Source: Eubacteriales bacterium
GTDB taxonomy: Bacteria > Bacillota > Clostridia > Lachnospirales > Lachnospiraceae
Direction: 5' to 3'
DNA: 37,145 nt
Assembly (NCBI GenBank): GCA_030524545.1
Contig: JAUNGM010000037.1
Span: forward strand, 1 to 37,145
Part shown: piece by piece, positions 2,368 through 32,223 of the stretch
Numbering within the stretch: position 1 is the stretch's first letter
How the letters are laid out: every line of letters starts with the position of its first letter
Notes under the pieces: generated by a model
Seen by the model: only the letters and a program-made list of their open reading frames with translations
Database searches by the model: none
What the model was told of the DNA's origin: nothing
Position numbers and translations under genes: made by a program

Positions 2368-2844
2368 ATGCAGGAGGAAGTGACACAGAAAACGATTGCC
2401 CTTGTGTTCAAATCTTCCCGGCTGACTGCCGACGTGCTGAAAAAAGCTATGAAGATGTATCTGGAACACCGGAAACAGGGAAAGCAGATGCCGCATGGAA
2501 AAATATCAGTGAAAGAGCTGGTCGGTCAGGGTATGGGCGCTTCGAGCATTGAGATTACGGATAACAACATTAAGTCCTTTGAGAGAGTGGCAAAGAAATA
2601 CAATGTACAGTTTGCTGTGAAGAAGGATAAGACAGAAAAGCCGCCGAAGCACATCGTATTGTTTAAGGGCAGGGATGCCGACGTGATTACGCAGGCATTT
2701 AAGGAATTTGTAAAAGTTAATGAGAAAAAGCACAACCGCATCTCCGTAAAGGAGAAGCTGGCGGAGTTCCGGGAACAGCTAGGAAAGGACAAGAACCGGG
2801 AGAGGGCAAGGGAACATTTAAAGGACAGGGGGCAGTCATTATGA
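2368..2844 (+). CDS. pcfB: PcfB family conjugation accessory protein
   Basis: This 158-aa protein matches the PcfB family, which sits just upstream of the VirD4/PcfC coupling protein in Firmicutes conjugation operons. The N-terminal half is alpha/beta and soluble (TADVLKKAMKMYLEHRKQGKQMPHGKISVKEL). The C-terminal 35 residues are highly charged and begin with [14 protein letters not shown] (R124 at base 2737), a module shared with three other proteins in this window. AAGGAGG precedes the ATG. The stop overlaps the virD4 start as ATGA (2841-2844), which implies translational coupling. The likely role is as an adaptor or substrate near the coupling ATPase; its biochemistry is not established from sequence. 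Confidence 0.88.
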   Translation: MQEEVTQKTIALVFKSSRLTADVLKKAMKMYLEHRKQGKQMPHGKISVKELVGQGMGASSIEITDNNIKSFERVAKKYNVQFAVKKDKTEKPPKHIVLFKGRDADVITQAFKEFVKVNEKKHNRISVKEKLAEFREQLGKDKNRERAREHLKDRGQSL

Positions 2845-4682
2845 GTAAAATCGTAGACGGCATTGCCAAAGACTTAAAATCTGTTCCCGAAAAGCTCAAG
2901 GCAAAGACGGGGAATGTAGATAAAAAGAAACTTTTCCTTATGAATCTCCCTTATATGCTTGCCGGGTATTTCTGCGACAAAGTAGCGTGGCTGTGGCGGG
3001 TATCGCCGGGGCAGGACGCTTCCGCAAAGATGATGGCGGTCATGGCGGGGATGGAGGACTTGTTTTCTAACCCGTTACCAAGTTTCCACCCGAAGGATTT
3101 GCTGATAGGCGCAGGATGCGGCATTGCGCTCCGCCTTGTGGTGTATTTTAAAGCCAAGAACGCCAAGAAGTTCCGGCATGGCATGGAGTACGGTTCTGCG
3201 AGGTGGGGTAATGCAAAGGATATTGAGCCTTATGTCGATCCGGTATTTGAGAACAATGTGTTACTCACAGAAACGGAAAGACTGATGATGTCGGGCAGAC
3301 CAAAACAGCCGAAGTATGCGAGGAATAAAAATATCCTTGTTATTGGCGGCTCCGGCTCCGGCAAGACGAGATTTTTTGTAAAACCGAACCTGATGCAGAT
3401 GCACTCATCGTATGTTGTTACTGATCCAAAGGGGACAGTGTTAGTAGAGTGCGGAAAAATGCTTTTAAAGAACAATTACCGGGTAAAAGTGCTGAATACC
3501 ATTAACTTCAAGAAGTCCATGCACTACAATCCTCTCGTTTATATCCGGAGCGAGAAGGATATTTTGAAACTCGTAAACACAATCATTTTAAACACCAAAG
3601 GGGAGGGACAGCAATCCGGCGAAGATTTTTGGGTGAAAGCCGAAAAGCTCTATTACACCGCACTGATCGGGTACATCTGGTATGAGTGCGTGGAGGAAGA
3701 ACAGAATTTCACTACATTGCTTGACATGATAAATGCCAGTGAAGCAAGGGAGGATGATGAGGAATTTAAAAATCCCGTTGATTTGATGTTCGATGAGCTG
3801 GAGGAAAGAGAGCCGGAGCATTTTGCGGTAAAGCAGTATAAAAAATACAAACTGGCGGCGGGCAAGACAGCGAAAAGCATTTTAATTAGCTGTGGCGCAC
3901 GTTTAGCCCCTTTTGACATCAAGGAGCTGCGTGACCTGACAAGCTATGACGAGCTTCAGCTTGATATGATCGGAGATGAAAAGACAGCGCTGTTTGTCAT
4001 TATCTCCGATACCGATGACACATTCAACTTTATCGTGTCAATTATGTACACGCAGCTTTTCAATCTGCTCTGTGACAGGGCGGACGATGTGTATCATGGC
4101 AGGCTGCCCGTTCATGTGCGCTGCCTACTCGATGAGTTTGCAAACATCGGGCAGATACCAAAGTTTGAGAAGCTGATTGCAACAATCCGGAGCCGGGAAA
4201 TATCAGCTTCCATAATCTTGCAGTCGAAGTCGCAGCTCAAAGCGATTTATAAGGATAACGCCGACACCATAGAAGGGAATTGTGATACCACCTTATTCCT
4301 CGGAGGGAAGGAAAAGACCACTCTAAAAGAGATGGCGGAAATTTTGGGTAAGGAAACGATAGACCTTTACAATACCTCTGACACAAGGGGTACGTCGCAG
4401 TCCTACGGTCTGAACTACCAAAAGACCGGGAAAGAGCTGATGAGCCAGGACGAGATTGCGGTCATGGATGGAGGGAAATGCATCATGCAGCTTAGAGGGG
4501 TAAGACCTTTCTTCTCCAATAAGTTTGACATTACAAAGCACAAGCAGTACCGCCTTCTGTCCGATTTTGATGACAAGAACGCCTTAGACATTGAAAAATA
4601 TGTAAAGAACCTGTGCAAAGCAAGAGTCAGGGACAATGACACCGTTGATGAGGTGGAAGATGCGGGCGTGATTGAAGTATGA
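2841..4682 (+). CDS. VirD4/PcfC-type coupling ATPase (CD1115-like)
   Basis: This 613-aa type IV secretion coupling protein would link the relaxosome to the mating channel and pump the DNA strand. Two hydrophobic segments lie near residues 34-55 and 87-103, followed by the cytosolic motor. Walker A is GGSGSGKT at residues 169-176 (K175). Walker B is LLDEFANIGQIP with D431-E432. The ILQSKSQL and DTTLFLGGKE segments that follow are typical of VirD4/TraG. The length is normal. The start overlaps the pcfB stop. A non-coding stretch with a palindrome follows, so this gene probably ends the first transcription sub-unit. Confidence 0.93.
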   Translation: MSKIVDGIAKDLKSVPEKLKAKTGNVDKKKLFLMNLPYMLAGYFCDKVAWLWRVSPGQDASAKMMAVMAGMEDLFSNPLPSFHPKDLLIGAGCGIALRLVVYFKAKNAKKFRHGMEYGSARWGNAKDIEPYVDPVFENNVLLTETERLMMSGRPKQPKYARNKNILVIGGSGSGKTRFFVKPNLMQMHSSYVVTDPKGTVLVECGKMLLKNNYRVKVLNTINFKKSMHYNPLVYIRSEKDILKLVNTIILNTKGEGQQSGEDFWVKAEKLYYTALIGYIWYECVEEEQNFTTLLDMINASEAREDDEEFKNPVDLMFDELEEREPEHFAVKQYKKYKLAAGKTAKSILISCGARLAPFDIKELRDLTSYDELQLDMIGDEKTALFVIISDTDDTFNFIVSIMYTQLFNLLCDRADDVYHGRLPVHVRCLLDEFANIGQIPKFEKLIATIRSREISASIILQSKSQLKAIYKDNADTIEGNCDTTLFLGGKEKTTLKEMAEILGKETIDLYNTSDTRGTSQSYGLNYQKTGKELMSQDEIAVMDGGKCIMQLRGVRPFFSNKFDITKHKQYRLLSDFDDKNALDIEKYVKNLCKARVRDNDTVDEVEDAGVIEV

Positions 4683-4732
4683 CAACTGAATATTGAAAAA
4701 CTGAATATGGAACCCGTCAACCAGCTACAAAA

Positions 4733-4755: not shown

Positions 4756-4771
4756 TGGAACGGAGTTTTGA

Positions 4772-4942: not shown

Positions 4943-4960
4943 AAAGAAAGAGGTAGAAAC

Positions 4961-5176
4961 ATGGCATTTTTTACAACAGCGGTAACAGGATTAAAGACAG
5001 TCGTAACAGCAATCGGAGCAGGCGTGGGCGTATGGGGCGTCATTAACCTTCTGGAAGGCTACGGAAATGATAATCCGGGTGCAAAATCACAGGGAATTAA
5101 GCAGCTTATGAGTGGAGGGGGCATTATCATTGTGGCGCAGACGGTGATCCCACAGCTCTCCAGCCTGTTTTCATAA
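4961..5176 (+). CDS. Maff2 family small membrane protein
   Basis: This 71-aa protein consists mostly of two hydrophobic segments (about residues 10-30 and 50-66) separated by GNDNPGAKSQGIKQLM. It matches the Maff2-type proteins found just before the VirB6-like gene in Clostridia ICEs. The layout resembles a VirB2-like pilin or small channel subunit, but that role is inferred from position and topology. The ATG follows AGAAAGAGG. Only 5 bases separate its stop from the next start. Confidence 0.85.
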   Translation: MAFFTTAVTGLKTVVTAIGAGVGVWGVINLLEGYGNDNPGAKSQGIKQLMSGGGIIIVAQTVIPQLSSLFS

Positions 5177-5181
5177 GATAA

Positions 5182-6054
5182 ATGGGCGGCATCATAGACA
5201 AAATCACTGATTTCATAAAGGAGATGCTGCAAGGGTGGGTGCTTAGCAACCTTGATACCATGTTCTCTGATGTCAATGATAAGGTCGGGACGATTGCGGG
5301 GGAGGTCAGCAAGACACCCAGCACATGGAACTCCGGCATATTCAGCATGATACGGACGCTTTCGGAGAACGTGGTAGTACCCATAGCAGGCATGATAATC
5401 AGTTTTGTGCTGATCTATGAGCTGATAACAATGGTAATCGACAAAAACAATATGCATGACTTTGATACAAGCCTGTTCTTCCGTTTTCTATTTAAGGCTT
5501 GTATCGCTGTCATGCTTCTTTCCAAGACCTTTGATATAGTCATGGCGGTGTTTGACGTGGGAAGCCATGTGGTGACACAGGCGGCATCTTCCATATCAGG
5601 CTCCACAAGCCTTGACGTTCAGGCTACCCTTACAACCATGTTCAACAATCAGATTGACACGATGGGGATAGGGGAGCTTATCGGTCTTGGTCTGGAAACT
5701 ATGGTAATCAGCTTATGTATGAAAATCATGTCCGTCCTCATCACCGTCATTTTATATGGGCGCATGATTGAAATATACCTTTATGTGTCAGTTGCGCCAA
5801 TCCCGGCAGCGACAGTTACCAACCGGGAATGGGGTACAATCGGGACAAATTATTTAAAAGGGCTTGTCGCACTTGCGTTTCAGGGGTTCTTTATCATGGT
5901 GTGCGTGGCGATTTATGCTGTGCTTGTGGCGAGTGTCGCAGTGGCGGGAAATTTACACAGCGCATTGTGGTCGGTGGCGGCATATACCGTAATCCTCTGT
6001 TTCAGCTTATTCAAGACAGGTTCATCATCAAAATCCATTTTCAATGCCCACTAA
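5182..6054 (+). CDS. VirB6-like polytopic membrane protein (CD0415/CD1112 type)
   Basis: This 290-aa protein has an N-terminal amphipathic part and about five to six hydrophobic segments, including VVVPIAGMIISFVLIYELITMVI, FLFKACIAVMLLS, ETMVISLCMKIMSVLITVILYG and GLVALAFQGFFIMVCVAIYAVLVASVAVA. It would form part of the inner-membrane pore of the mating channel. The start at 5182 has a poor ribosome binding site but lies 5 bases after the upstream stop, so it is probably translated by coupling. It is followed by prgI and virB4 in the usual order. Confidence 0.85.
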   Translation: MGGIIDKITDFIKEMLQGWVLSNLDTMFSDVNDKVGTIAGEVSKTPSTWNSGIFSMIRTLSENVVVPIAGMIISFVLIYELITMVIDKNNMHDFDTSLFFRFLFKACIAVMLLSKTFDIVMAVFDVGSHVVTQAASSISGSTSLDVQATLTTMFNNQIDTMGIGELIGLGLETMVISLCMKIMSVLITVILYGRMIEIYLYVSVAPIPAATVTNREWGTIGTNYLKGLVALAFQGFFIMVCVAIYAVLVASVAVAGNLHSALWSVAAYTVILCFSLFKTGSSSKSIFNAH

Positions 6055-6114
6055 ATACAGCGGATTTATGGAAGCCGCTGGTTTGGCGGGCATTGCCCAC
6101 GAAAGGAGCAGACT

Positions 6115-6522
6115 ATGGCAATATCAGTACCAGTGCCGAAAGACCTGAGTGGAATCAAGACAAAAGTAGCGTTGAACCTTACCAAAAGGCAGATTATCTG
6201 CTTTTCGGGAGCTGCCCTTGTGGGCGTACCCTTATATTTCCTTACCAAAGGGGTATTGGGGACACAGGGGGCGGCGCTTATCATGGTGGGCGCAATGCTG
6301 CCATTCTTCTTTTTGGCAATGTATGAAAAAGACGGTTTCCCGGCAGAGAAGATTTTATACTTCATGCTCCGGCAGAAGATACTCACGCCGGGAATCAGAC
6401 CGTATAAATCGGAAAACCTCTACAAGCAGTTGGAGGAACGGGAAAGAATCAGGAGGGAGGTATGTTTCCTTGAACAAAAAGCAAAAGGCGGTGGCGGCAA
6501 AGCCAAAACCGCAGGAAAATAA
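6115..6522 (+). CDS. prgI: PrgI family membrane protein
   Basis: This 135-aa protein starts MAISVPVPKDLSGIKTKVALNLTKRQ, typical of PrgI. Two adjacent hydrophobic segments follow (about residues 28-44 and 48-67). PrgI proteins sit next to VirB4 and fill a VirB3-like position in Gram-positive type IV secretion systems. GAAAGGAG precedes the ATG. The last 53 bases overlap the start of virB4 in another frame, so the two genes are translationally linked. Confidence 0.9.
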   Translation: MAISVPVPKDLSGIKTKVALNLTKRQIICFSGAALVGVPLYFLTKGVLGTQGAALIMVGAMLPFFFLAMYEKDGFPAEKILYFMLRQKILTPGIRPYKSENLYKQLEERERIRREVCFLEQKAKGGGGKAKTAGK

Positions 6523-8968
6523 GCGGTTACCGGAAAAGTCGGGACTGACTTTTTCGGAAAAGAAACGTCTGGCGGAGCTTCGGCGTGTCCTTGCCGGGAA
6601 CAGCAGGGAGCAGGCAAAGCCGGACACCGCACAGAAAACCATTACATTCAAAAAAATGTACCGGGACGGCATCTGTCAGGTGGCGGACAATTATTATACG
6701 AAAATGGTGGAGTTTTACGACATTAACTATGACTTGCTGGAGGTGGAGGATCAGGCGGATATTCTGGAAGAATACAGCAAGCTCATTAACTATTTCGATC
6801 CGTCCATAAAGTTCCAGTTGTTTTTATTTAACAGGCAGGTCAGCGAGCAGGCTCTTGCGGAACAGTTCGACATTCCTCTGTAGGAGGATGATTTTGACGA
6901 TATTCGTGACGAGTACACGCAGATGTTAAAGCACCAGTCGGCAAAGGGCAACAACGGTATCATCAAGTCCAAGTACCTGATTTTCGGTGTGGAAAGCACC
7001 GGGTACAGGGAAGCCAAAAGCAAGCTGAACAATATCGAGAAAGACGTGATACACAATTTAAACAATATCGGCACAAACGCCAGAGGTCTTGACGGGAAGG
7101 AAAGGCTGCGTATTCTGCATGAGTATTTCAATCAGGGTACAATGGAGCCTTTCCGTTTTTCGTTTAAGGAGCTGTCAGAATCTGGGAAGTCGGTCAAAGA
7201 CTATATTGCGCCGCCGGGGTTTGACTTCCGTTATCCAAGCCGCTTTAAGTCCGGCAGCATTTACGGGAGCGTGTCTTACCTTGACATGATTGCGCCGAAG
7301 TTTACGGACGAGATGGTAAAGAAGCTGCTGGATATTGATGATAACCTTACCCTTACCATGCATATGCAGACCATTGATCCGGTGGAAGCAATCAAGATGA
7401 TAAAACGTGCGCTCACCGACATTCAGAAAATGAAGATTGAGGAACAGAAGAAAGCAGTCCGGAGCGGCTACGATATGGACATTCTGCCTACGGACATCGT
7501 GACCTATGAAAAGGATACGCTGGATTTACTTGACGATCTGAACACAAGCAACCAGAAACTTATCAAGATGACCTTTCTCATTACCTGTTATGGGAGGACG
7601 AAACGGGAGCTTGAGAACCTGACGCAGAGGGTGTCCGGCATTATTCAGCAGGCAAACTGTAACTTGCGGTGTTTGCAGTATTTACAGGAACAGGGGTTAA
7701 TGGCAAGTGCGCCGATTGGCTGTAACGAAGTGGGGATTGAAAGGAACCTTACCACGAAAAGCACCGCTGTCCTTGTGCCATTCTGCACACAGGAGCTTTT
7801 CATGCCAGCACCCGCCATTTACTATGGTCTGAACGCACTTTCCAACAACATGATTATGGCAGACCGGAAAAGGCTGCGTACACCGAATGGCGTGATTTTA
7901 GGCACACCCGGAAGCGGTAAATCATTCAGCGCAAAACGTGAGATTTTGTCCTGTTTCCTTATCACAAAGGACGATATTATTGTCTGCGATCCGGAGGGCG
8001 AGTATTTCCCGCTGGTGCAGGCGCTTCATGGGCAGGTGGTAAGGCTTGCCACCAATTCAAAAGATTTCCTTAACCCGATGGACATTCAGCTCTCCCATAA
8101 AGGGGATAAGGAGGCGCTCAAATTAAAGAGCGATTTCCTGATTACCCTGTGTGACCTGATAGCCGGAGGCAAGGACGGTCTGGAAAATGACGAGAAGGGC
8201 ATCATTGATACCTGTATCAAGCATATCTATGACGGGTATTTCAAGCACCCGAAGCCGGAGAATATGCCCATACTGGAAGATTTGTATAATGCGCTGTTAA
8301 AGTATGAGCCGAGGGACGTTGCGCCGGAGATGCAGAGGGAAGCGAAGCAGAAGGCGGTACGGATTGCCAACAGCCTTGTGCTGTATGTGCATGGCTCGCA
8401 GAATTATTTCAACCACCGTACTAACGTGGATTCCCATAACCGGATCATGTGCTTTGACATTCGTGACTTGGGAAACCAGTTAAAAGAGATTGGGATGTTG
8501 ATTGTGCAGGATGCGGTCTGGAACAGGGTGTCGCAGAACCGGGAGCGCAAAATTGCCACAAGATATTACTGTGATGAGTTCCATTTGCTTTTGAAAGAAA
8601 AGCAGACCGCCATTTACTCGGTGGAGATTTGGAAAAGGTTCCGGAAATGGGGCGGAATCCCAACAGGACTGACACAAAACGTGGGCGATTTTCTGAAATC
8701 GGAGGAAATCGAGGGCATCTTGGGGAACAGCGATTTTGTGTACCTGTTAAACCAGAACGCCAAAGACCAGCATATTTTAGCAGATAAGTTAGGACTGTCA
8801 GAAAAACAGCTCATGCACGTCACCAATTCCGAACCGGGAAGCGGTCTGATACTGTTTGATAACGTGGTTATCCCGTTCGTGGATAAGTACCCGGTAGATA
8901 CAAAGACTTATGCGATTATGAACACGAAGCCGGAGGAATCAGTGAAAAAGGAAGATGAGGACAGTTAA
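6470..8968 (+). pseudogene. virB4: VirB4-like conjugation ATPase with in-frame amber codon
   Basis: Read through the stop, this is an 832-codon VirB4 ATPase that powers the type IV secretion channel. The TTG at 6470 with AGGGAGG (6454-6460) is the likely start. A TAG at 6881-6883 (codon 138) lies in the same frame as the rest of the gene. Flanking sequence reads FDIPL-stop-EDDFDDIRDEY without any frame change, so a CAG to TAG change is the simplest explanation. The downstream part (first ATG at 6923, 681 aa) keeps Walker A GTPGSGKS (codons 478-485) and Walker B YYCDEFHLLL (D702-E703). Reinitiation at 6923 would yield a protein lacking the first 151 residues. The gene could also be a real two-gene split. 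Confidence 0.85.
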
Positions 8969-11733
8969 TGGCGCAGGATAAAAAAGGAAAAAATACCGCC
9001 TACCAGAAAAAAGCAGGATCGGAGTTCCGGAAGGGAGCCGGAAATGCTTTTACGGGCGGTGGCAGTGCTGCCTATCAGCCGAGAGATGCCAATGCCGGGA
9101 AGGATGGGCAGAGCGTGGACAGGAAAAAGCATACAGAAAAGAGAATACAGACGCATCAAGAAACTTTTGGACAAAAAGTCCAGAAGTCCGAAAAGAGCCA
9201 GCCGGGGGAAAACAGCACTTTTACAGAAAATAAAAGCATGGATTTCCAAAAGGAAGATACCGGGCAGCATAACTCAAACTATGTTTCAAAGGCTCGTGCG
9301 AAAAAGCAGATGTATCAGCCCGCTTCTGGACAAAAAGTCCAAAAGTCCGGTGCAAAGCCGGGACAGGAAGAAAAGCCGGATTTTGTAAAGGAAAGCAATA
9401 CTTTTACCGGGCAGGAGAATTTCAGCCAGCCGGAGGAAACGGAAAAAAAGCAGGCAGATACAGAGGATTACCACCGGAGGGATACATACAGGCAGTCGCA
9501 GAAAAAAGGGAAATACCATAAAAAACGGGTGCAGAAGGAACACCGGGTAAAAGGCGGCTCAGGTGAGAAACCGGAAAATAGAACCTTTACGGAAGAAACT
9601 TTTTCGGGGAATACCGGAAAGTCTTTTCAGGGGGAAGGAGGCTCTGAATTTACCGGAAGTAAAAAGCTGCAAAAGAAACAGCGGCAGGTAGAGAAAGCCG
9701 GGAAGAAAGTACAGAAAGCAAGGGCGAAGCTGCCAAAGACAAGGGAATATACCTTGCAGAGAGTGTTTGACGAGAAAACCGGGAAAGGAAAATATGTGGT
9801 TGTCCCTCTGGATAAGGAGAAAACCTTCAAGCAGGAGGGCATACCCAAAACTACCATACGCCGGGTACAGAATGAGAGCAAGAATTTTGTGCATGGGAAA
9901 ATCGCTGAAACGGAGAAAGAAAATTCAGCCGTTGAAGGCGCACACAAATCGGAGCAGAAAGGAGAGGAATTATTTTCTTTCGTCAAAAGGCAGATAAAGG
10001 GTAAAGAGCAGAAACAGCGGGCGAAAGTGGCTAAGCTGGAAAAGAAGCAGTTTAAAAAGGAAGTCAATTTCCAGTACCAGAAATTCTTGGAGGAAAACCC
10101 GCAGATGCAGAAAAAAGCATTGCAAAAGCGGCTGCAGAAACAGCGCATTAAGCGGGAGTATATCAAGGCGAGAAAGAAAGCGGCGGCAGGAAAGGCGGCG
10201 GAGCAGGCATTTGAAAAGACGAAAAACGGTGCGGTCACTGTGGCGAGGAAGTTACAGGAGTTTGCGAGGAAAAATGCAGGACTTCTTGTAACGGTGGGCA
10301 TCATGGCTCTGCTCCTTATGATGATTATGGTTTCCGTATCGTCCTGTGGGGCGATGTTTGCGGACACGCAGTCTACCATATTAGCGGCGAGTTATTTAAG
10401 CAAGCCGAAGGAGATTGACGCTGCCGATTTACAGCTTACCCGTCTGGCGCTTGACTTGCAGAATGAGATTGACCAGGTGGAAACAGATTATCCGGGGTAT
10501 GATGAATATTCCTACAATCTTGGGGCAATCGGGCATAACCCGTTTACCCTCATAAGCTATTTATCCGCTGTCCATACGGAATTTACCGCAAGTGAAGTGG
10601 AAAGCGAAATACAGGCTCTTTTTGACGAAATGTACACGCTGACGCTCACGCCGGATACGGAAACGAGGACAAGGACGGTCACAAAAACAGGAACGAGGAC
10701 GGTCACTGATCCGGTCACAGGGGAGGAAACCGAGGAAGAATATGAATACGATGAGAAAGAAGAATACGAGGTCAGTATCCTCAGAGTGACGCTTACGGTT
10801 ATTCCGCTTGAGAACCTTGTTTCCGGAAAAATGGATACGGAGCAGGCGGAGATTTTTGCCATGTACCGGGAAACAAACGGTCTGCTTCAGGAGTTCGCTT
10901 CGCCGCTTAACCTTTACTGGTATTATTATGTATCAAGCTACTACGGATACCGGAAAAATCCAAGCACAGGGAATGAGGAATTTCACCGGGGCGTGGATAT
11001 AGCAGTGCCGACAGGCACAACCGTTTATGCGGCGCATGACGGTACGGTGACAGCGGCGGCATATGACAGCCACTACGGGAATTATGTAGCGATTGAGATA
11101 GACGGTTACACAACCAAGTATGCCCATATGGATACGCTCAGTGTGAGTGCGGGGCAGGAAGTGGAAAAAGGGGCGGTCATCGGCACGACGGGGAACACCG
11201 GGAGCAGCACAGGAAGCCATTTGCATATCGAATGTTTATATGACGGGGAGTATTATAATCCGTTATTTTATTTTGACGTGGGCGAAGGCACGCTGTACGG
11301 GGAAACGCCGGGCGGTCTGCCGGGGAACGCCATACCGCCGGATGCCTATGATGACGCATCGGTGCAGGCACTTATGGAGGAAGCCGCAAAATATCTCGGT
11401 TACCCGTATGTGTGGGGCGGTTCAAGCCCTTCCACGAGTTTTGACTGTTCCGGCTTTGTCTGCTGGGTATTTACCAACAGCGGGGTGCATAACCTTCCAC
11501 GAACCACAGCGCAGGGGATTTATGACCAGTGTACTCCGGTTTCCGCGTCGGACGCAAAGGCGGGGGACATTATATTTTTTACCGGGACTTACAATTCAGC
11601 CGGGGCGGTGAGCCATGTAGGGATTTACTGCGGCAACGGGACAATGATACACTGCGGCGATCCGATCAGTTACGCAAGCATCAATTCGTCCTACTGGCAG
11701 AGCCATTTTTACAGTTTCGGCAGGTTAAATTAA
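8968..11733 (+). CDS. CD1108-type cell-wall hydrolase (M23 + NlpC/P60)
   Basis: This 921-aa protein is probably the wall-opening enzyme of the mating channel. Residues 1-430 are lysine- and glutamine-rich, charged and probably cytoplasmic or disordered. A transmembrane segment spans about 437-462. Outside the membrane comes an M23-like peptidase with HRGVD (H673, D677) and HLHIE (H751, H753), and then an NlpC/P60 domain with FDCSGF (C827), SHVGIY (H883) and H895. Both active sites look complete. The ATG overlaps the virB4 stop (TAATG). Two copies of the dispersed palindrome lie inside the coding sequence at 9164 and 9323, both encoding GQKVQKS. Related ICE proteins have the same two-enzyme layout. 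Confidence 0.92.
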   Translation: MAQDKKGKNTAYQKKAGSEFRKGAGNAFTGGGSAAYQPRDANAGKDGQSVDRKKHTEKRIQTHQETFGQKVQKSEKSQPGENSTFTENKSMDFQKEDTGQHNSNYVSKARAKKQMYQPASGQKVQKSGAKPGQEEKPDFVKESNTFTGQENFSQPEETEKKQADTEDYHRRDTYRQSQKKGKYHKKRVQKEHRVKGGSGEKPENRTFTEETFSGNTGKSFQGEGGSEFTGSKKLQKKQRQVEKAGKKVQKARAKLPKTREYTLQRVFDEKTGKGKYVVVPLDKEKTFKQEGIPKTTIRRVQNESKNFVHGKIAETEKENSAVEGAHKSEQKGEELFSFVKRQIKGKEQKQRAKVAKLEKKQFKKEVNFQYQKFLEENPQMQKKALQKRLQKQRIKREYIKARKKAAAGKAAEQAFEKTKNGAVTVARKLQEFARKNAGLLVTVGIMALLLMMIMVSVSSCGAMFADTQSTILAASYLSKPKEIDAADLQLTRLALDLQNEIDQVETDYPGYDEYSYNLGAIGHNPFTLISYLSAVHTEFTASEVESEIQALFDEMYTLTLTPDTETRTRTVTKTGTRTVTDPVTGEETEEEYEYDEKEEYEVSILRVTLTVIPLENLVSGKMDTEQAEIFAMYRETNGLLQEFASPLNLYWYYYVSSYYGYRKNPSTGNEEFHRGVDIAVPTGTTVYAAHDGTVTAAAYDSHYGNYVAIEIDGYTTKYAHMDTLSVSAGQEVEKGAVIGTTGNTGSSTGSHLHIECLYDGEYYNPLFYFDVGEGTLYGETPGGLPGNAIPPDAYDDASVQALMEEAAKYLGYPYVWGGSSPSTSFDCSGFVCWVFTNSGVHNLPRTTAQGIYDQCTPVSASDAKAGDIIFFTGTYNSAGAVSHVGIYCGNGTMIHCGDPISYASINSSYWQSHFYSFGRLN
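9164..9186 (+). repeat. Dispersed 23-nt palindrome, copy 4 (inside hydrolase gene)
   Basis: It is identical to copy 3 (AAAAA loop), but lies inside the coding sequence of the cell-wall hydrolase, where it contributes TFGQKVQKS. Confidence 0.9.
9323..9345 (-). repeat. Dispersed 23-nt palindrome, copy 5 (inverted, inside hydrolase gene)
   Basis: It is the exact reverse complement of copies 1 and 2. It lies 159 bases after copy 4 in the same gene, where it again encodes SGQKVQKS. The two coding copies fall in the same reading frame. Confidence 0.9.
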
Positions 11734-11743
11734 GGAGGCATTT

Positions 11744-12004
11744 ATGACAAAGGAACGGATTGAAAAGGAGCTTTCCAAAGTGCGGGCGCAGCTTGAAACC
11801 TTGCAGGCGAAGCAGAAGGATTTGGAAGAACAGAAATGCATGGCGGAAAGAGCCGAAAAAATGGATATTATCGAAAAGCATAAAATCTCGTCCGAGAAGC
11901 TGCAATTACTTATCAAATTCAGCGAGGACGAGATTTTGAAGTTATTGGAAGAAAAAGAAAACGCAAAGGAGATGGCAGGAAATGAAGAAAAAGTTATCAG
12001 TTAG
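11744..12004 (+). CDS. DUF4315 family coiled-coil protein
   Basis: This 86-aa protein matches DUF4315 proteins found beside the CD1107/CD1108-type genes. Its sequence, MTKERIEKELSKVRAQLETLQAKQKDLEEQK, is a heptad-rich coiled coil running through about residue 50, followed by a short second helix. It has no membrane segment. A GGAGG precedes the ATG. The last 23 bases overlap the start of the next gene. The role is unknown; it may assemble with a neighbouring transfer protein. Confidence 0.85.
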   Translation: MTKERIEKELSKVRAQLETLQAKQKDLEEQKCMAERAEKMDIIEKHKISSEKLQLLIKFSEDEILKLLEEKENAKEMAGNEEKVIS

Positions 12005-13592
12005 GGCGGCGGTGTCGCTGCTTTTATCGGCATTATTGTTCTGTATGCCCATAGGGGCGTTTATGGCGAACAGTGGGAATACGGTAGATGCTTATGCGGA
12101 GGAAAGCGGCGGAGCATCAGAGGAAAGCACCGGAGCAGAGGGGAACACTGAAACCGGGGAAACAGAAAACGAACCCGGTGACAGCAAGGAAGAAACGGAA
12201 GGCGGAACGGTATCCGGGAATGAAGTCCCGGAGCCGGAATGTACCTGTAAAGAAAAATGCACGCAGTATTCCGTTGACAAAGACTGCGAAGTCTGCAAGG
12301 GGGATTACAGCTTATGCGAATATGTGAACCCGAATGTAAAAATCACAATCTCCACTCCGTCCGGGTGGCACAATGACACCACAAAGGTACATATCTCCAT
12401 AGAGGACGTGGCACATTCCGGCAACTTTACCATAAAGACGGTACAGGCGAAAGTTGCACAGAATGGGAGCTGGACGGACATCACAGAGGATATGTATGTG
12501 GAGATTTCGGAGAATACCACTGTCTATGTGCTTGTGACAGACCAGAGGGGCAAAACCTATGAGAAAAACCGCTATATCAAGTGTTTTGACTTCACGAAGC
12601 CTACCTTAAACGCTGCGGTCAGCGACGGTCTGCTCTCCGTACAGGCGCATGATACGGATTCCGGCATCAAGGCGGTATATGTGAATGGGTATGAATTTAC
12701 GGAGCTTACAAATGGTGTCTTAAATATCCGTCTGCAACAGTTTGACGCTGGCTACCAGTATTTTACCATTTCCGCTATGGATAATGCCGGGAATATGTCA
12801 GAGATTTACAAAACAGCCAATCCTTATTACACCGATCCGGAAAAAGAGGACGGAAACGAAAAGAACCCGGCAGAGCAGCTCCCGGTAAACGCACAGGCAA
12901 CCAAGCCTTCCTCTGCCACCGCACAGGTGACGGAGCATACCAAGACGGACAGTGACGGGAATACCGTATCGGAGAACAGCCTTGCGGAGCAGAAAAAACA
13001 GGCGATGGCGGAAGCGGCGGCATCGGAGGGAAAGGAAGAATCCGGGGAGAAGGAAAAAAGTGAAACAGGAAAGGAATTTTACACAATCCAGACCGCATCG
13101 GAAAAAGTGTTCTACCTTATCATAGACCGGGACGGGGAGGAAGAAATGGTGTATTTCCTGACAGAAGTTACGGAAAATGACCTGCTTAACGTGACAGCGG
13201 ACAACAGCGAAACCTTACCGAAAAATTCCGCTGCGCTGGAATCCGCAATCCCTGTGACAGAAGGCGCACTTCCCAATAATAACGGGGAACAGGAGAAGGA
13301 AGAAGAAACTGCGGAAGAACCCACAGAGGACGGGGAGGAAGAAACTACCGAAGAACCCGAACCGGAGCCGGAGAAAACAGGGGAAAACCCGGCGGCAACC
13401 TATATCATTCTTGGGATTGTGGCGGCTGCAGCCATTGGCGGCGGTTACTATTTTAAAGTAGTCCGGAAAAAGAAAGAGGAATTTCTTGACGAGGACGATG
13501 ATGAGGACGAGGAAGAAGAATACGAAGATGACGAAGAAAATGAAGACAGTGGGGATGATTTTTTTGAAGATAAAGAAGGGGAGGACGAATAA
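11982..13592 (+). CDS. CD1107/DUF4366-type surface protein
   Basis: This 536-aa protein begins with a signal peptide (about residues 1-39, MKKKLSVRAAVSLLLSALLF). Extracellular sequence follows, with a cysteine cluster (CTCKEKC, CEVCKG) and a beta-rich domain around residues 110-280. A long acidic, Pro/Glu-rich linker precedes a transmembrane helix (AATYIILGIVAAAAIGGGYYF). The protein ends in a basic stop-transfer stretch and an extremely acidic tail of about 35 residues. It is probably a single-pass surface component of the mating apparatus. The Ig-like reading of the beta-rich region (TVQAKVAQNGSWTDITEDMYVEI) is my inference. Confidence 0.85.
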   Translation: MKKKLSVRAAVSLLLSALLFCMPIGAFMANSGNTVDAYAEESGGASEESTGAEGNTETGETENEPGDSKEETEGGTVSGNEVPEPECTCKEKCTQYSVDKDCEVCKGDYSLCEYVNPNVKITISTPSGWHNDTTKVHISIEDVAHSGNFTIKTVQAKVAQNGSWTDITEDMYVEISENTTVYVLVTDQRGKTYEKNRYIKCFDFTKPTLNAAVSDGLLSVQAHDTDSGIKAVYVNGYEFTELTNGVLNIRLQQFDAGYQYFTISAMDNAGNMSEIYKTANPYYTDPEKEDGNEKNPAEQLPVNAQATKPSSATAQVTEHTKTDSDGNTVSENSLAEQKKQAMAEAAASEGKEESGEKEKSETGKEFYTIQTASEKVFYLIIDRDGEEEMVYFLTEVTENDLLNVTADNSETLPKNSAALESAIPVTEGALPNNNGEQEKEEETAEEPTEDGEEETTEEPEPEPEKTGENPAATYIILGIVAAAAIGGGYYFKVVRKKKEEFLDEDDDEDEEEEYEDDEENEDSGDDFFEDKEGEDE

Positions 13593-15713
13593 ATGCAGTT
13601 AGTGATAGCGGAAAAACCGAGTGTTGCAAGGAGCATCGCAGAAGTAATCGGCGCAACAAAGGTCAGTGACGGATACATGGAGGGGAACGGTTATGTTGTA
13701 AGCTGGTGTGTGGGGCATCTGGTGGAGCTGGCACAGCCGGAAAGCTACGGGGAACAGTGGAAGAAATGGACATATGAGAGCCTTCCGGTAAAGCCGGAAA
13801 AATGGCAGTATGAGGTCAAGCAGGATACGAAAGCACAGTATGATGTGCTTTGCCAGTTGATGCACCGGGGAGATGTGTCGGCTACGATTTGTGCCACCGA
13901 TGCCGGACGGGAGGGCGAGCTTATCTTCCGTCTGGTGTATGAAATGGCAGGCTGTAACAAGCCGATCAAACGCCTATGGATTTCCTCAATGGAGGAAAGT
14001 GCTATTCGTGAAGGATTTGAGAATTTACAGCCGGGGAGTGATTATGATAACCTGTACCATTCCGCACTGTGCAGGCAGGAAGCGGACTGGCTTGTAGGCA
14101 TCAACGGTACAAGGCTGTTTACAGTTTTGTATGGCGGAAAAGTTTTAAAGGTGGGGCGGGTGCAGACACCCACCCTTGCGATGCTGGTAGACCGGGAAGC
14201 AAAGATTATGAACTTCCAGAAGGAAAAATATTACATGGCGCATATCCTGATGGATGGGATAGATGCCGCCACCGGGCGCATTGATGATAAAAAGAAAGCA
14301 GATGAGATTGTGGGGGCTTGCCGGGACGGGCAGGCTCTTACCACGTCTGTTGTAAAAGAGGAAAAGGCGGTCATGCCGCCGAAGCTCTATGACCTTACCA
14401 CGCTCCAGAGGGATGCGAACCGTTTATTCGGCTTTACCGCAAAGCAGACCTTAGAGTACACGCAGAGCCTTTACGAGAAAAAGTTAGCCACATATCCGAG
14501 GACGGACAGCCAGTTCTTATCCGATGATATGGGGCAGACCGCAGAGGGCGTGATTGAAGCGGTGTTCAGCTCCCTTATGTTTGAGGAAAATAAAACTTTC
14601 AGCCCGGATATAAAAAGGATTCTGAACAGCAAGAAAGTGACAGACCACCATGCCATTATCCCCACAATGGAGATAGCAAAGGCTGACCTTGCGGCACTGC
14701 CGGAAACGGAGCGCAAAATTTTATCTTTGGTTGCAAACCGTTTGTTATGCGCCACAGGGGAGAAGCATCTGTATGAAACAGTTAAGGCGGAGTTTTCCTG
14801 TAATGGACATACGTTTGCGGTTTCCGGGAAGTCTGTCACGCATAATGGGTGGAAGTCTTTTGAAGATGCCTTTAAGCGTTCTTTTAAAATCTCCGGGAAT
14901 CCGGAAGAAGAAAAAGAGGAAAGGAAGCTGCCGGAACTTTCGGAAGGACAGGCGTTTGACGGTGTACAGACGAAAATCAGCGAGCATTTCACTTCCCCGC
15001 CGAAGCACTTTACGGAAGATTTATTATTATCTGCAATGGAGCGTGCCGGGGTGGAAGATATGGGCGATGAGGTGGAACGGAAAGGCTTGGGTACGCCAGC
15101 GACAAGGGCGGATATTATCGAAAAGTTAGTCAAGGACGGATTTGTGAAGCGTGAGAAAAAGCAGATCATACCCACAGAGGACGGATTGAAGCTGATAACG
15201 GTGCTGCCCGATGTGGTGAAGTCACCGAAACTTACCGCCGATTGGGAAAATGCCCTGACATTGGTAGCAAAAGGGGAGCTTCCAATGGAGGACTTCATGG
15301 CGGATATTGAAAATATGGTGTCGGAGCTGATACACACCTACCATGAGGTCAGTGACGAGCAGAAAAAGATGTTCGCACAGGAGCAGGAGGCTCTTGGGGT
15401 ATGCCCGAACTGCGGCGGTCAGGTGGTAAAAGGAAAATTCGGTGCGTACTGCGTGAAGAAATGCGGTATGAATGTGAGCCGGGTAATGGGAGCTGTCCTT
15501 ACCGATGCACAGGTAAAAGATATGCTTGCCGGAAAGAAAATCCTGTCAAAAGGGTTAAAGAGCAAGGCGGGCAAGCCTTATGACGCTTACATCATTCCGA
15601 GTGGGACAGAGGAATACCACTATACCAAAAACGGAGAAGAAAAAAGCGGGGTACAGTTTAAGTTTATCATGGAATTTCCCAAAAAGAAAAGTTCAGGCGG
15701 GAAGAAAAAATAA
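13593..15713 (+). CDS. topB: DNA topoisomerase III (type IA)
   Basis: This 706-aa protein opens with a Toprim domain (MQLVIAEKPSVARSIAEVIG, then ATDAGREGELIFR). The type IA catalytic tyrosine is Y301 in LATYPRTDS. A short C-terminal zinc-ribbon-like segment carries CPNCGG and CVKKCG. It would decatenate or relax DNA during ICE excision, replication or transfer. Such topB genes are a standard part of this ICE type. It starts directly at the stop of the surface-protein gene and is followed after 13 bases by the XRE gene. Confidence 0.95.
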   Translation: MQLVIAEKPSVARSIAEVIGATKVSDGYMEGNGYVVSWCVGHLVELAQPESYGEQWKKWTYESLPVKPEKWQYEVKQDTKAQYDVLCQLMHRGDVSATICATDAGREGELIFRLVYEMAGCNKPIKRLWISSMEESAIREGFENLQPGSDYDNLYHSALCRQEADWLVGINGTRLFTVLYGGKVLKVGRVQTPTLAMLVDREAKIMNFQKEKYYMAHILMDGIDAATGRIDDKKKADEIVGACRDGQALTTSVVKEEKAVMPPKLYDLTTLQRDANRLFGFTAKQTLEYTQSLYEKKLATYPRTDSQFLSDDMGQTAEGVIEAVFSSLMFEENKTFSPDIKRILNSKKVTDHHAIIPTMEIAKADLAALPETERKILSLVANRLLCATGEKHLYETVKAEFSCNGHTFAVSGKSVTHNGWKSFEDAFKRSFKISGNPEEEKEERKLPELSEGQAFDGVQTKISEHFTSPPKHFTEDLLLSAMERAGVEDMGDEVERKGLGTPATRADIIEKLVKDGFVKREKKQIIPTEDGLKLITVLPDVVKSPKLTADWENALTLVAKGELPMEDFMADIENMVSELIHTYHEVSDEQKKMFAQEQEALGVCPNCGGQVVKGKFGAYCVKKCGMNVSRVMGAVLTDAQVKDMLAGKKILSKGLKSKAGKPYDAYIIPSGTEEYHYTKNGEEKSGVQFKFIMEFPKKKSSGGKKK

Positions 15714-16239: not shown

Positions 16240-17352
16240 GTGGGAAAAAAACAAGAACTTTTAGATAAACATAAAATAATTTTTCAAAATGGAGAACTAT
16301 TAATTGGAAAAAATAAAATTACATTTGATGATTATCTAATATTGGATATGGTTAATAATGGAGCAAATGCTATTATCCTAAAGGCTCAAGGAAATGTAGC
16401 AAAAGAAGTTGTGGCAATAAAGGTATGGATACCTGATGAAAAACCTGATAGAAATATACAAAGTATAAAAGAGATTACTAAGTTAGCAAATTTAAATAAA
16501 GAAAAGCCTAATACAAATTTGGTAAGATACTATGGAAGTGGGATAGTTAACGGTTATTACTATTGTATTATGGAATACTTAGATATGGACAGGTATGTTA
16601 CTTTAAGAGAAAAACACATAGATCGAATGTTGTTACAGGAGAGATACCAATTACTAATGCATATCGTAAGTGGATTACGGTATGCGCAGGAAAACATGAT
16701 TTTTCATGGAGATTTACATGCTGATAATATTCTTGTAAATAAAACTGATAATACTATAAAAATTATTGATTTCGGAACCAGTTTTAGAAATCAGATATAT
16801 TCCAAAAAACGTGATAATAAAATGACATTAGAATTAGGAAAAACTCTTCTGAGAGAAGAGTGGGACAAGCGTCTAATTGTTTTTTATGATACATCACTTG
16901 AACAGTTACCTCAAAATGCGATAAGGCTTCTTGTAAAAGCAGCAGCTAAGATTTTGGTATTGCTTGATTTTTGGAAATATGGAAATGTTGAAACTATTGT
17001 TGAAGATATTGCTTTATTTGCAACGTTAGTTCCCTTTTTTGATCTTAGATTTTTAGTAGATTGTTTGTTTCAACATAGGGAAGTTCCAGAACACTTTAAA
17101 CAAATATTTAAAGAAAAGATAATTACAGAATTATATCAGTCTACAAGGGATGTGGAGTTTGATGAATTAGAAGAGATGTATGCAGAACATCAAAGACGCT
17201 TTATCAAATTATGTGAAAACGAACCTCGTGAAAATTATATATATCGTGATTATCAGCAAGCAGTTTTATTTAATGGGGCATTATATGCAAGATATTTTGC
17301 AGAAGATGAAAGCGTAATAGAAAGAATTGAAATTGAACAAGCAATAGAGTAG
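16240..17352 (+). CDS. Hanks-type protein-kinase-like cargo protein
   Basis: This 370-aa protein has a kinase fold in residues about 32-185. The Gly-loop is unusual (NNGANA, 39-44). VAIK carries the ATP lysine K61, and E78 is the probable partner. The catalytic loop is HGDLHADN (D158, N163) and the metal-binding motif is DFG (177-179). The C-terminal half is helical and unrecognised, with no transmembrane helix or PASTA repeat. AGAAAGGAG supports the GTG start. Codon use is AT-rich (AGA, ATA, TTA), unlike the flanking ICE genes. It has its own promoter and terminator. It is probably a recently acquired cargo gene. Some single-gene kinases act in phage defence, but that role is only inferred here. 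Confidence 0.8.
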   Translation: MGKKQELLDKHKIIFQNGELLIGKNKITFDDYLILDMVNNGANAIILKAQGNVAKEVVAIKVWIPDEKPDRNIQSIKEITKLANLNKEKPNTNLVRYYGSGIVNGYYYCIMEYLDMDRYVTLREKHIDRMLLQERYQLLMHIVSGLRYAQENMIFHGDLHADNILVNKTDNTIKIIDFGTSFRNQIYSKKRDNKMTLELGKTLLREEWDKRLIVFYDTSLEQLPQNAIRLLVKAAAKILVLLDFWKYGNVETIVEDIALFATLVPFFDLRFLVDCLFQHREVPEHFKQIFKEKIITELYQSTRDVEFDELEEMYAEHQRRFIKLCENEPRENYIYRDYQQAVLFNGALYARYFAEDESVIERIEIEQAIE

Positions 17353-17458: not shown

Positions 17459-17499
17459 GGTGGCAATGGCTTATGAACGAACCATAGCCGCCTTTTTTT
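17459..17499 (+). promoter_or_regulatory. Terminator/attenuator in the leader of the 3046-aa gene
   Basis: GGTGGC (17459-17464) pairs with GCCGCC, and ATGG with CCAT, separated by one A-A mismatch. T7 (17493-17499) follows. It stands 38 bases upstream of the giant gene's ATG, so readthrough would be needed for expression from upstream. It could instead be the original operon terminator. Confidence 0.5.
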
Positions 17500-30600: not shown

Positions 30601-32223
30601 ATAGATACCAACAGCCATACAATGGACGGGGTGGAAACGGAGCTTGCCTTCCGGCTTGCAGACCGTTATATCAGTATTCAGGAAGCCAGCGAAGGGTACG
30701 ATTATACAATTTATGATATGGATTACCGGGAATTGGACGGTGGTGTGTATGACAACCCGGATATAACAATCCAACAGGCTTTGGACGAGATTGTGACGGA
30801 CTTGAAAGAGCCGACACATAGGAGTGAACTGGAGGGAAGTATCCGTACCGATGATGAACTGATACCGATTGATTATGATGGATTGATGGAAAAAGCGGAG
30901 CATGCGGTAAAAGAGCATCTTGAGGAACGTATCAGAACCGAAGTGCCGGAAGCAGTGGAAAGCAAGGTCATAGCGGATTTTAAAGCCAAAACTGAGGAAT
31001 TATTTCATGGCATCAACGGGCAGACACAGGAAGATATAGAACTGAATGTTTACGCTTATTTACAGTCCAAGATTGACGAGTATGGAATGGATATAAAACT
31101 TGTGGATATGGCGGTATCCGGGAGCAGGTGCAGAGGTTTAGAGGGAGCTGGTTCTGACCTTGATGTGGTAGTGGAGTACCGGGGCGGGGAAAGTGAAGAT
31201 GCCCTGTTCAACGCCTTTAACGAGGACGGTTTTACAATCGGCGGCGTCAAGGTAGACATCAATCCCATTACAGAGGGAAAGACCGGGACGCTTGGGGAAT
31301 ATCTTCCGGGTGTGGAAGCCTATCTTGAGGAAAACCGTGCCGCCATGCAGGAGAAGGGCGCAGAGCAGACACAGGAGGAAAAACAGACGGTTGTCACCCT
31401 TACAGTGGCGGAGTGCGGGGAGTTCCATAATTTCGGAGAATACCATGAGAATATCGCTGGCGTGGAGGAAGCAATCGCCATTTTCAATCAGATACCACCG
31501 GAGAGGATGAACGCTATCCCAAGCATCGGCATCAATATCCATACAGAGGGGACAGAAAACTATGAGGACACGCAGATGGACATTATATCCGGGAGGGTTG
31601 CGGATTTGGAGATTCTGGACTATGTGCCGGATATTACGGACAACCCGAAGGCGGTGGAGGTCATTGCGGAGCTGATCGACAAGCTGCCGGACATTGAGGT
31701 GCGTGGTTCTCTGGAAAAGTGGCAGGCGGCTTTCCTTGCTGCGGAGATAGACCAGTTATCTTATGACTATGACACTTACCAGTACAATCATACAGTGGAG
31801 GACAGGGAAGCGCAGATTGCAAACATTACAGAGGACATCAGAGGCGGGAATACCGGGTATCTTAATGACTTCCTCAATGCGCTCATTTCAGACAGTATCC
31901 GGGAAGGCATGACGGATATTTTCGGGAAAGGTATGGAGCTTGATGACAGTGAGGGCGTACAGACCGCAAGGAAGGCGAAGGAGCTGTTAGATAAGCTGGC
32001 AGAATATAAGCCGCTTGCAAAAATTGAGGAACTGGAAGAATGTAACTATAACATGATTGATAACGTCCTGAACAATGAGAAACCGAAAGAGGAAAAGCAG
32101 ACAGGCAGAGTTTCCATAAAGGAAAAACTGGCGGAGAAAAAGGCGGTCATCGAGCAGAGGGATAAGGCAGAAAAAGAAGTCCCGGAAAAAGGAACGGAGA
32201 AAAAATCAGAGAGGGAGATATAA
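27625..32223 (+). CDS. ArdC-type polyvalent anti-restriction protein (1532 aa)
   Basis: Residues 1-160 match the ArdC N-terminal ssDNA-binding domain (FHNYSANNIQLIEMQCPDATYVAGYKAWQ, VNKGERGIRIL). A zincin follows with HEVAH (H210, E211, H214) and probable third ligand E240 in EAESIAYT. A YodL domain spans about 674-772 (FMNMDYLEKEGIPV, YTLIYTGELKEGISLEDIY). A nucleotidyltransferase-like segment has GSRCRG (from 1166), SDLD (1177-1180) and D1211. Next comes a domain I cannot name (FHNFGEYHENIAGVEEA). The C terminus carries GRVSIKEKL (R1495). ArdC-type proteins bind incoming single-stranded DNA and block restriction. The start follows GGAGAGATA. The domain order suggests several anti-defence activities fused in one protein. 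Confidence 0.88.
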   Translation: MADARTEKQKVKEITDRLEEGLKELFEGEKYKSYLNTMSKFHNYSANNIQLIEMQCPDATYVAGYKAWQRNFERHVNKGERGIRILAPAPYKIKEEQEKIDPVTNEPVLDRDGMPVMEEVEIKIPAFRVVTVFDYSQTDGKGLPGLGVNELHGNVERYQDFMEALNRVSPVPIRYEGLEGDRKGYFIDLNHPIAIKEGMSETQTAKTGVHEVAHAKLHAKEIEQETGTIKDRETKEVEAESIAYTVCQHFGIDTSDYSFGYIAGWSSGKEMPELKSSLDTIRRTSSELIKGIEAQLLELEKERAAEQAQEDLIVLVANTDRSEYDLLSVKGMERTELFNSLLAMKDDDRQSVEAYLERAGAWVTLLANERSEEVGEYHLDYAYNTDTHEITDFKALQEEREKANIPIEYGDVVVRISTPDSGEYETIKITNMQSEVANVVYSIPFLQENEWNGNVLDYLQEKGFEFVPIMRSGGVNDGYPQFYDFDVDMSEWEVHTASELPATVQAEQLINRMEFHRSVYGTDERNLIMNHAYKLDDMYKTTSLAHSLAEQKDDLPLLLETIKAAEEEIDFLPDGMVGLSQMHEYGYSWDEMLPLTKDRALELFREDVSVYRLHADGSETLVEDRAALQEHDGLFGVEKSDWSAYLEYQSMKQGLEDSEPNREAQLLYGSESRFGIYQLKDTEETRDIRFMNMDYLEKEGIPVSRENYTLIYTGELKEGISLEDIYTKFNIDHPADFTGHSLSVSDVVVLHQDGENTSHYVDSVGYREIPEFTKELSVSAEVSVEKAPVMEETAEITEGAAEENTAAKPDSDKVSYYVIEDLSTWAENSPDKSRLERFDSLSEAVAKFAEYRGKDMEEKPDMARATFGFNVNGSEFDLIHVRNHENCLSLDFTHSRAAGESSRFMDDLQILSDEVGFDKVRVHREMSPEEIKDFVKQRFEYQLKSSGLDDISLYMDRFDALYEQGKMEHLMPTANQKHIVENVPFMEWENPYIDTNSHTMDGVETELAFRLADRYISIQEASEGYDYTIYDMDYRELDGGVYDNPDITIQQALDEIVTDLKEPTHRSELEGSIRTDDELIPIDYDGLMEKAEHAVKEHLEERIRTEVPEAVESKVIADFKAKTEELFHGINGQTQEDIELNVYAYLQSKIDEYGMDIKLVDMAVSGSRCRGLEGAGSDLDVVVEYRGGESEDALFNAFNEDGFTIGGVKVDINPITEGKTGTLGEYLPGVEAYLEENRAAMQEKGAEQTQEEKQTVVTLTVAECGEFHNFGEYHENIAGVEEAIAIFNQIPPERMNAIPSIGINIHTEGTENYEDTQMDIISGRVADLEILDYVPDITDNPKAVEVIAELIDKLPDIEVRGSLEKWQAAFLAAEIDQLSYDYDTYQYNHTVEDREAQIANITEDIRGGNTGYLNDFLNALISDSIREGMTDIFGKGMELDDSEGVQTARKAKELLDKLAEYKPLAKIEELEECNYNMIDNVLNNEKPKEEKQTGRVSIKEKLAEKKAVIEQRDKAEKEVPEKGTEKKSEREI

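Follow-up and report, generated by a model that had tools for sequence, protein, structure and literature searches.

Why should otherwise different proteins of one mobile element end in the same way? The question is raised by contig JAUNGM010000037.1 of the Eubacteriales bacterium assembly GCA_030524545.1, a 4.34 Mb draft genome. The window analysed here is this entire contig of 37,145 bases, and by its gene order it matches a Tn1549/CTn-type conjugative element (CD1110 VirB4, CD1115 VirD4). Because the window is the whole contig, the element may be cut. Four proteins of the window, namely PcfB, a polyvalent methyltransferase-helicase, a DUF6674 protein and an ArdC-type polyvalent protein, carry a common C-terminal tail (Table 1). 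The tail has two parts. A [KR]-x-S-[VI]-(2-3 residues)-L motif starts the helix approximately 30-37 residues before the end; the final stretch is basic and charged, and its last residue is mostly Leu or Arg and otherwise Val, Ile or Glu. The tail is a real, general and functionally suggestive module, with a likely role in delivery. We lean slightly towards the view that it serves Tn1549/CTn-type elements as a recruitment or translocation tag, which would be read at the VirD4-PcfB gate of their type IV secretion system (T4SS).

The tail in the window and its position

The initial annotation had placed four copies at bases 2737, 26568, 27422 and 32107, and all four were found there in frame, 35, 36, 36 and 38 residues ahead of the stop. 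The residue number R3011 of the methyltransferase had to be corrected; with the GTG start at 17460 it is R3037. When all six frames of the window were searched with a relaxed tail pattern, no further match was obtained. Leave-one-out profiles, in which three tails were used to search for the fourth among 663 six-frame open reading frames (ORFs) of at least 30 amino acids, recovered all four tails, with expectation values (E) of 4.8e-6 for PcfB, 2.6e-9 for the methyltransferase-helicase, 5.4e-7 for the DUF6674 protein and 0.011 for the ArdC-type protein; the next-best ORF had an E of at least 0.29. When the four-tail profile was searched against the window genome, the four training tails (E < 1e-17) and one weak match (E 0.087) were obtained.

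The carriers had been described as otherwise unrelated, which needs qualification: the methyltransferase-helicase resembles the ArdC-type protein in an N-terminal stretch (58 amino acids, 41% identity, E 5e-9 to 1e-8), so the set of four is not wholly unrelated. KEESL forms the final residues of both the methyltransferase-helicase and the DUF6674 protein, as had been noted. The PcfB and methyltransferase-helicase tails contain an identical decapeptide in which just 4 of 10 codons are identical, and their longest exact DNA match is 8 bases. Among all pairs of the four tails, the longest exact match is 14 bases, between the adjacent methyltransferase-helicase and DUF6674 genes. Few identical codons and short exact DNA matches indicate that the likeness lies at the protein level, and recent gene conversion of the tails was disfavoured by the codon comparison. 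Shared descent or recombination, in which gene conversion or domain shuffling between neighbours passes on tails of little function, would account for the adjacent pair with its common KEESL and longest exact stretch and for the common N-terminal stretch. We consider this very unlikely, because an identical peptide is written in mostly different codons, the tail is kept at the C terminus across many families, and none was found on backbone ORFs (counts below). DUF4316 was rejected as a name for the tail, being a separate upstream stretch.

The position of the tail was examined in loci gathered around VirB4 alone, which were the best 80 of at least 477 VirB4 relatives. A profile made of PcfB tails only was searched against 1326 unique non-PcfB ORFs from these 80 loci, the annotated stretches L025-L029 and the window. 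Among its 23 matches at E <= 1, 22 begin 26-37 residues before the stop and one is internal; one of the 22 terminal matches (L102) is without the S-[VI] core. Reversed sequences gave 0 matches, and block-shuffled sequences gave 2, both internal. A second profile, A5, was built from 54 tails including 28 cargo tails and is thus partly circular for cargo. In 30 later element stretches, the zone 22-46 residues from the end held 32/32 matches of the PcfB-only profile at E <= 1 and 42/45 at E <= 10; since these stretches were chosen via A5 tails or a tailed PcfB, they are a hold-out for position and not for frequency. With A5, a set of 115 loci, 30 of which were chosen because tails had been detected there, was searched as 18,280 stop-to-stop ORFs. 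All 75 non-PcfB matches at E <= 1 fell into the same zone, which makes up 20% of the residues, as did 5/6 weaker matches at E 1-5 and 16/29 at E 5-50. Of 22 matches listed for 15 further stretches, 19 were terminal, and the internal ones were in L147 (E 0.015), L154 (0.79) and L151 (4.2). The initial annotation had proposed a profile search for C-terminal enrichment in such elements. This enrichment was observed, and the motif was neither as frequent elsewhere nor at internal positions.

The internal copy in L147 lies in an ORF of 1861 amino acids (7776-13361), 1126 residues ahead of its end, and is possibly due to chance or gene fusion.

Families and genomes that carry the tail

In the 80 VirB4-only loci, the tail (by profile or simple pattern) was present on 33/34 PcfB proteins, on 34/45 ORFs of nine polyvalent or anti-restriction query families and on 0/550 ORFs of 12 backbone families. 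In all 115 loci, it was present on 68/69 PcfB proteins (E up to 0.98; the exception is in L052), on 87/103 polyvalent ORFs (81/97 unique ends) and on 0/874 ORFs of the 12 backbone families (0/722 unique ends). The per-family counts, which overlap between families, were 45/52 for YodL/ArdA, 7/7 for a family of 314 amino acids, 4/4 for DUF6674, 44/51 for ArdC, 23/26 for the methyltransferase-helicase, 33/39 for DUF3849, 6/6 for MutS, 26/34 for ArdA-DUF3846 and 7/7 for LPD34. The tail-free families were relaxase (0/28), MobC (0/12), VirD4 (0/102), VirB6 (0/109), PrgI (0/109), VirB4 (0/116), peptidase (0/100), DUF4315 (0/30), CD1107 (0/78), topoisomerase III (0/81), TTRAP (0/3), DUF6017 (0/43), Maff2 (0/96) and MT-A70 (0/16). 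The simple pattern alone matched 474/17,234 leftover, mostly spurious frames, a chance rate of 2.8%. Outside the query families, 21 more ORFs had tail matches at E <= 1, at least two of them short frames and perhaps chance. In plasmid-borne annotated relatives, KPSIR..L with a basic end was found on PcfB, on ArdA-, YodL-, DUF3849- and MutS-domain proteins and on a conserved protein of approximately 315 amino acids. In the same relatives the tail was absent from relaxase, MobC, VirD4, VirB4, VirB6, peptidase and topoisomerase, as judged by eye from a selection of genes in four records. An unexpected cargo was seen in L146 (475-2031), where a tagged protein of 518 amino acids matches alkaline phosphatase (PF00245) and MobC- and relaxase-like genes lie a few kb away.

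This distribution also bears on a different role, an assembly tag without export. The tail would then tether the polyvalent proteins to a PcfB or VirD4 hub or to each other in the producing cell, for example so that element DNA is methylated or protected at the membrane, either ahead of transfer or after it, and nothing would be translocated. PcfB is not a known export substrate and is itself tailed, several proteins of one element are tagged, and the relaxase is untagged, all of which agree with assembly. We nevertheless regard it as rather unlikely, since the topoisomerase III, MobC and MT-A70 methylase of these elements are untagged, and the tagged kinds are those proposed to act in the recipient in the available parts of Iyer et al. 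2017 (PMC5512222).

A sample from the window's class was then considered, 293 genomes with a completeness of at least 90% and with named relatives mostly in Clostridia. A5 found 119 tails in 47 genomes (E <= 0.05), and the DUF3801 model PF12687 gave 107 matches in 67 genomes. The 75 tails on proteins other than PcfB were spread over 40 genomes, 35 of which contain PcfB (Fisher 1.8e-21, a statistic that ignores phylogeny); 44 of the 75 lie on a PcfB-bearing contig, 42 of them within 60 kb of PcfB. Five genomes had tails without PcfB, and four of them were inspected (G202 was left out). In G282, G290 and G301, the tail lies at or close to a contig end and has relaxase, T4SS or topoisomerase genes of such an element next to it, and G371 is the genome of the internal L147 copy, with no such element genes within 20 kb. 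In the window genome, A5 found six tails: the four described above, one on an ArdA-YodL protein of a second element (contig 35) and a weak one on contig 32 (E 0.011). In the samples taken, the tail is thus nearly confined to conjugative elements of this T4SS type, where it stands on PcfB and on polyvalent or anti-restriction proteins. Contig 10 of the window genome carries a second, divergent T4SS, whose PcfB-like protein of 397 amino acids is without the tail.

Possible role of the tail and points against it

A docking or translocation tag would best fit the position and charge of the tail, its family distribution and the place of PcfB beside VirD4. We infer docking, the receptor involved, translocation and a function inside the recipient. 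In the donor, the polyvalent proteins (ArdA, ArdC, YodL, DUF3849, methyltransferase-helicase, LPD-domain and DUF6674 proteins) would dock by their tails at the VirD4-PcfB entrance of the T4SS. The docked proteins would then enter the recipient together with the relaxase-DNA complex or alongside it and might blunt restriction and other early defences there. The C-terminal helix of PcfB would fill the receptor site that the cargo tails use, which is probably part of VirD4, and would act there as an adaptor, placeholder or pseudo-substrate; the cargo tails would copy the contact between PcfB and this receptor. The initial annotation had proposed a signal read by PcfB/VirD4. The C-terminal module, its near-confinement and the lack of the tag on phage homologues speak for the signal, whereas the reader had to be reconsidered because PcfB carries the tag itself. 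PcfB is therefore no less likely to be a ligand or competitor than a reader, and the receptor may be VirD4 or a different component. We prefer VirD4, because the tail of PcfB suggests that it occupies the receptor site of the cargo.

The AlphaFold model of PcfB is of low confidence (predicted local distance difference test score 72, predicted template modelling score 0.47) and places the tail helix at residues 127-155, directly after S126. A search of this model against the PDB gave no match at E <= 0.001, only weak KH-like and PII/ferredoxin-like similarities. The fold was dropped as a pointer to the receptor, given the low-confidence model and the lack of a confident match to a solved fold. 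The Pfam models DUF3801 (PF12687) and DUF6674 (PF20379) reach into the tail at their C-terminal ends, and neither models it as a module common to several families. Searches of isolated tails (five each) against NCBIfam and Pfam returned one weak NCBIfam match (E 0.048) and the DUF3801 and DUF6674 ends; no tail-only model was found there. Residues 44-51 or so of PcfB (window 2497-2520) form a conserved internal motif, G-[KR]-x-[ST]-[VLIM]-K-x-L, which has some exceptions and resembles the tail start. That the tail mimics this motif was set aside as only an idea, as the spacing is off by one residue and several PcfB proteins deviate.

Over their last 34 residues, 60 PcfB tails have a mean net charge of +6.2 and 71 cargo tails one of +3.1, compared with +0.8 in the background. 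Such a positive end could let the tail bind the transferred strand or the relaxosome, so that carriage is electrostatic and not receptor-mediated; the available parts of PMC5512222 also propose the N-terminal domain of ArdC as DNA-binding. This ride-along on nucleic acid appears improbable. Charge alone would require neither a pattern as specific as S-[VI]-(2-3)-L nor its constant position, 30% of the 71 cargo tails have a net charge below +2, and PcfB and cargo co-vary at S+2, where the residue class (basic or not) agrees in 40/48 cargo tails. A degradation or stability signal that keeps down the amount of these large proteins in the donor would suit the C-terminal position and the limited set of terminal residues. 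We give it hardly any credence, as the last residue varies (Leu, Arg, Val, Glu, Ile) and PcfB, a small protein, is also tagged.

The similarity between PcfB and cargo tails was 25.9 within an element and 21.6 in shuffled pairs (27 PcfB clusters, p = 2.4e-4), a co-variation in favour of our reading. The own-element similarity was not above that to cargo from whichever element has the nearest PcfB (p = 0.34), which weighs against our reading and agrees with the shared descent discussed above. The matching is therefore at lineage level and could reflect shared descent; element-specific matching beyond lineage was not supported.

Several further observations weigh against the delivery tag. The tail of PcfB would fit a binding module without secretion equally well. 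In the wider PcfB family the tail is often absent or diverged: just 44 of the 107 DUF3801 matches overlap a tail match at E <= 0.05. Sixteen of the 103 polyvalent ORFs are untailed, of which approximately 10 still have, by eye, a similar basic-acidic-hydrophobic or Arg tip. The relaxase is the established T4SS substrate in conjugation, and all 28 homologues of one relaxase are untailed, so the tail does not serve as a signal for the T4SS in general. According to the available parts of PMC3297438, internal signals are used by some relaxases of other systems, so that an untagged relaxase remains compatible with a tag. In pCF10, both PcfB and an ArdC-like protein, which is encoded directly after the coupling protein (L211 7857-12381), are untagged. 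As one case, pCF10 fits the PcfB tail and the cargo tail going together.

The phage homologues are an imperfect control. The queried part of the methyltransferase-helicase (1300 amino acids) has 38-42% identity to proteins of seven named phages, fetched from 110 matching records. None of the six readable C termini carries the tag, and the seventh, of Itty13, runs off the stretch and was not counted. The six phages infect Gram-negative bacteria or a cyanobacterium and their proteins extend further, so that the control is confounded by lineage, which also weakens our reading. Four unverified contigs from human faeces are labelled Bacteriophage sp. (L239-L242). L240 and L241 have tag-like ends beside CD1107/topoisomerase or relaxase/MobC genes and look like fragments of integrative and conjugative elements (ICEs), and L239 also has a tag-like end. 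L242 has a VirD4-like ORF and yet an untagged methyltransferase-helicase, a further point against the tag. The Listeria-labelled L243 had no tag within the expected zone.

Elements with a long PcfB (L212-L228) present a second ending. Their PcfB has a PSVR-type motif approximately 46-56 residues from the end, readable in G404, G178 and G207 and detected by profile in G280, G284 and G190. Their polyvalent homologues are without this motif, again contrary to a simple tag, and often end in KSYER, KDYER, KTYER, GYER, DMER, REYER or EPER. In eight long-PcfB elements, two of which (G280 and G190) are near duplicates and whose bounds were set by eye after the endings had been seen, a C-terminal Arg occurred in 49/102 non-core same-strand ORFs and 0/29 core ORFs, against 245/2207 in the background (Fisher 3e-19). 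In this second T4SS element class, the cargo shares a different ending and PcfB keeps a related motif. A tentative idea, which we rate as possible but short of probable, is that Gram-positive conjugative elements run a modular delivery code. The C-terminal address would be specific to each T4SS lineage and common to its otherwise different effector proteins, an S-[VI]-(2-3)-L helix with a basic end in short-PcfB elements and a minimal Arg/YER in long-PcfB elements. PcfB would be the partner of the coupling protein and its tail the template that cargo imitates, and a ready-made anti-defence kit would be injected into the recipient.

Gene context and comparison with known systems

The gene order of the window is PcfB-VirD4-Maff2-VirB6-PrgI-VirB4-M23/NlpC peptidase-DUF4315-CD1107-like-topoisomerase III, followed by the cargo (Pfam; annotated records compared). 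The pcfB and VirD4 genes overlap by 4 bases. The methyltransferase-helicase, the ArdC-type protein and their relatives combine several unrelated effector or LPD domains per chain beside T4SS genes, as polyvalent proteins do; in the ArdC-type protein, NTP_transf_2 and DUF4316 matches were below the Pfam cut-offs. No relaxase, MobC or recombinase was found among the 21 window ORFs scanned with Pfam, and the contig may hold the element only partly. The window VirB4 gene is split by one in-frame stop. The reverse transcriptase and maturase domains near the contig edge apparently belong to a broken intron gene, and the kinase-like protein and the STAND-type NTPase are possible defence genes aboard the element.

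Table 1. Coordinates of the tails and other features in the window
Feature	Position	Strand	Remarks
PcfB (DUF3801), 158 amino acids	2368..2844	+	Pfam PF12687, E 8.3e-38
Tail copy 1, PcfB R124 to L158	2737..2841	+	
VirD4-type coupling protein, untailed	2841..4682	+	PF02534, PF12696; CD1115 family by annotated relatives
Untagged conjugation module: Maff2, TrbL/VirB6, PrgI, VirB4, M23/NlpC peptidase, DUF4315, CD1107-like, topoisomerase III	4961..15713	+	Pfam; homologues untailed
Polyvalent methyltransferase-helicase, 3072 amino acids	17460..26678	+	Pfam: DUF3849, weak Eco57I-like MTase, SNF2/ResIII/Helicase_C
Tail copy 2, methyltransferase-helicase R3037 to L3072	26568..26675	+	
DUF6674 protein, 280 amino acids	26690..27532	+	PF20379, E 5.9e-74
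Tail copy 3, DUF6674 R245 to L280	27422..27529	+	RVSVKDKLSQMKEKAGQQKKAPEPDKAKAKSKEESL
ArdC-type polyvalent protein, 1532 amino acids	27625..32223	+	Pfam: ArdcN, Peptidase_M78, YodL, LPD16
Tail copy 4, ArdC-type R1495 to I1532	32107..32220	+	RVSIKEKLAEKKAVIEQRDKAEKEVPEKGTEKKSEREI; directly after DUF4316 stretch, residues 1463-1498
Group II intron reverse transcriptase and maturase domains	313..1702		Two separate ORFs
In-frame stop in VirB4 frame	6881..6883		Relative in L032 open there
Ser/Thr kinase-like protein	16240..17352		PADLOC similarity to mad6 and PD-T4-6 kinases
STAND-type NTPase	33064..36795		Pfam nSTAND3

Polyvalent proteins, including those of Tn1549-like elements, have already been proposed to travel with DNA (Iyer et al. 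2017, PMC5512222). The tail stands on the same kinds of proteins; the available parts of that paper contain neither a shared C-terminal tail nor a link to PcfB. In the open-licence PMC literature, as far as its text was available, we found no description of a tail that PcfB shares with polyvalent proteins. A defined, removable tag of 35 residues on named proteins would make protein delivery by Gram-positive conjugative elements directly testable. The tag would also let candidate delivered proteins of gut ICEs be listed from sequence alone, and it would give DUF3801/PcfB a candidate role.

The BID of Bartonella is a folded domain approximately three times longer than the tail module of 30-38 residues. 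Like BID with its C-terminal tail, the present tail is a transferable module that recurs on several cargo proteins belonging to one T4SS, and like the CagA signal with CagF, it would be a C-terminal signal beside a chaperone site (available parts of PMC3297438). Through the T4SS of the F plasmid pED208, the plasmid proteins ParA, ParB1, ParB2, SSB, PsiA and PsiB reach recipients, as we propose for the cargo here; unlike the present elements, pED208 is Gram-negative, and the available parts of that study contain no common C-terminal tag (PMC8406263). C-terminal T4SS signals of Gram-negative systems have already been described as positive or hydrophobic (PMC3297438). Of the traits of a VirB/VirD4-type signal, the tail has the extreme C-terminal position, the net positive charge and the near-confinement to elements with the cognate T4SS, and it is missing from the relaxase and MobC. 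Like the signals of Agrobacterium VirB/VirD4 and Legionella Dot/Icm, it is short, C-terminal, positive or hydrophobic and present on different proteins. Unlike these signals, which the available parts of PMC3297438 describe as simple residue clusters, the tail starts its helix with a defined S-[VI]-(2-3)-L motif, occurs in Gram-positive conjugative elements and is also carried by a protein encoded beside the coupling protein.

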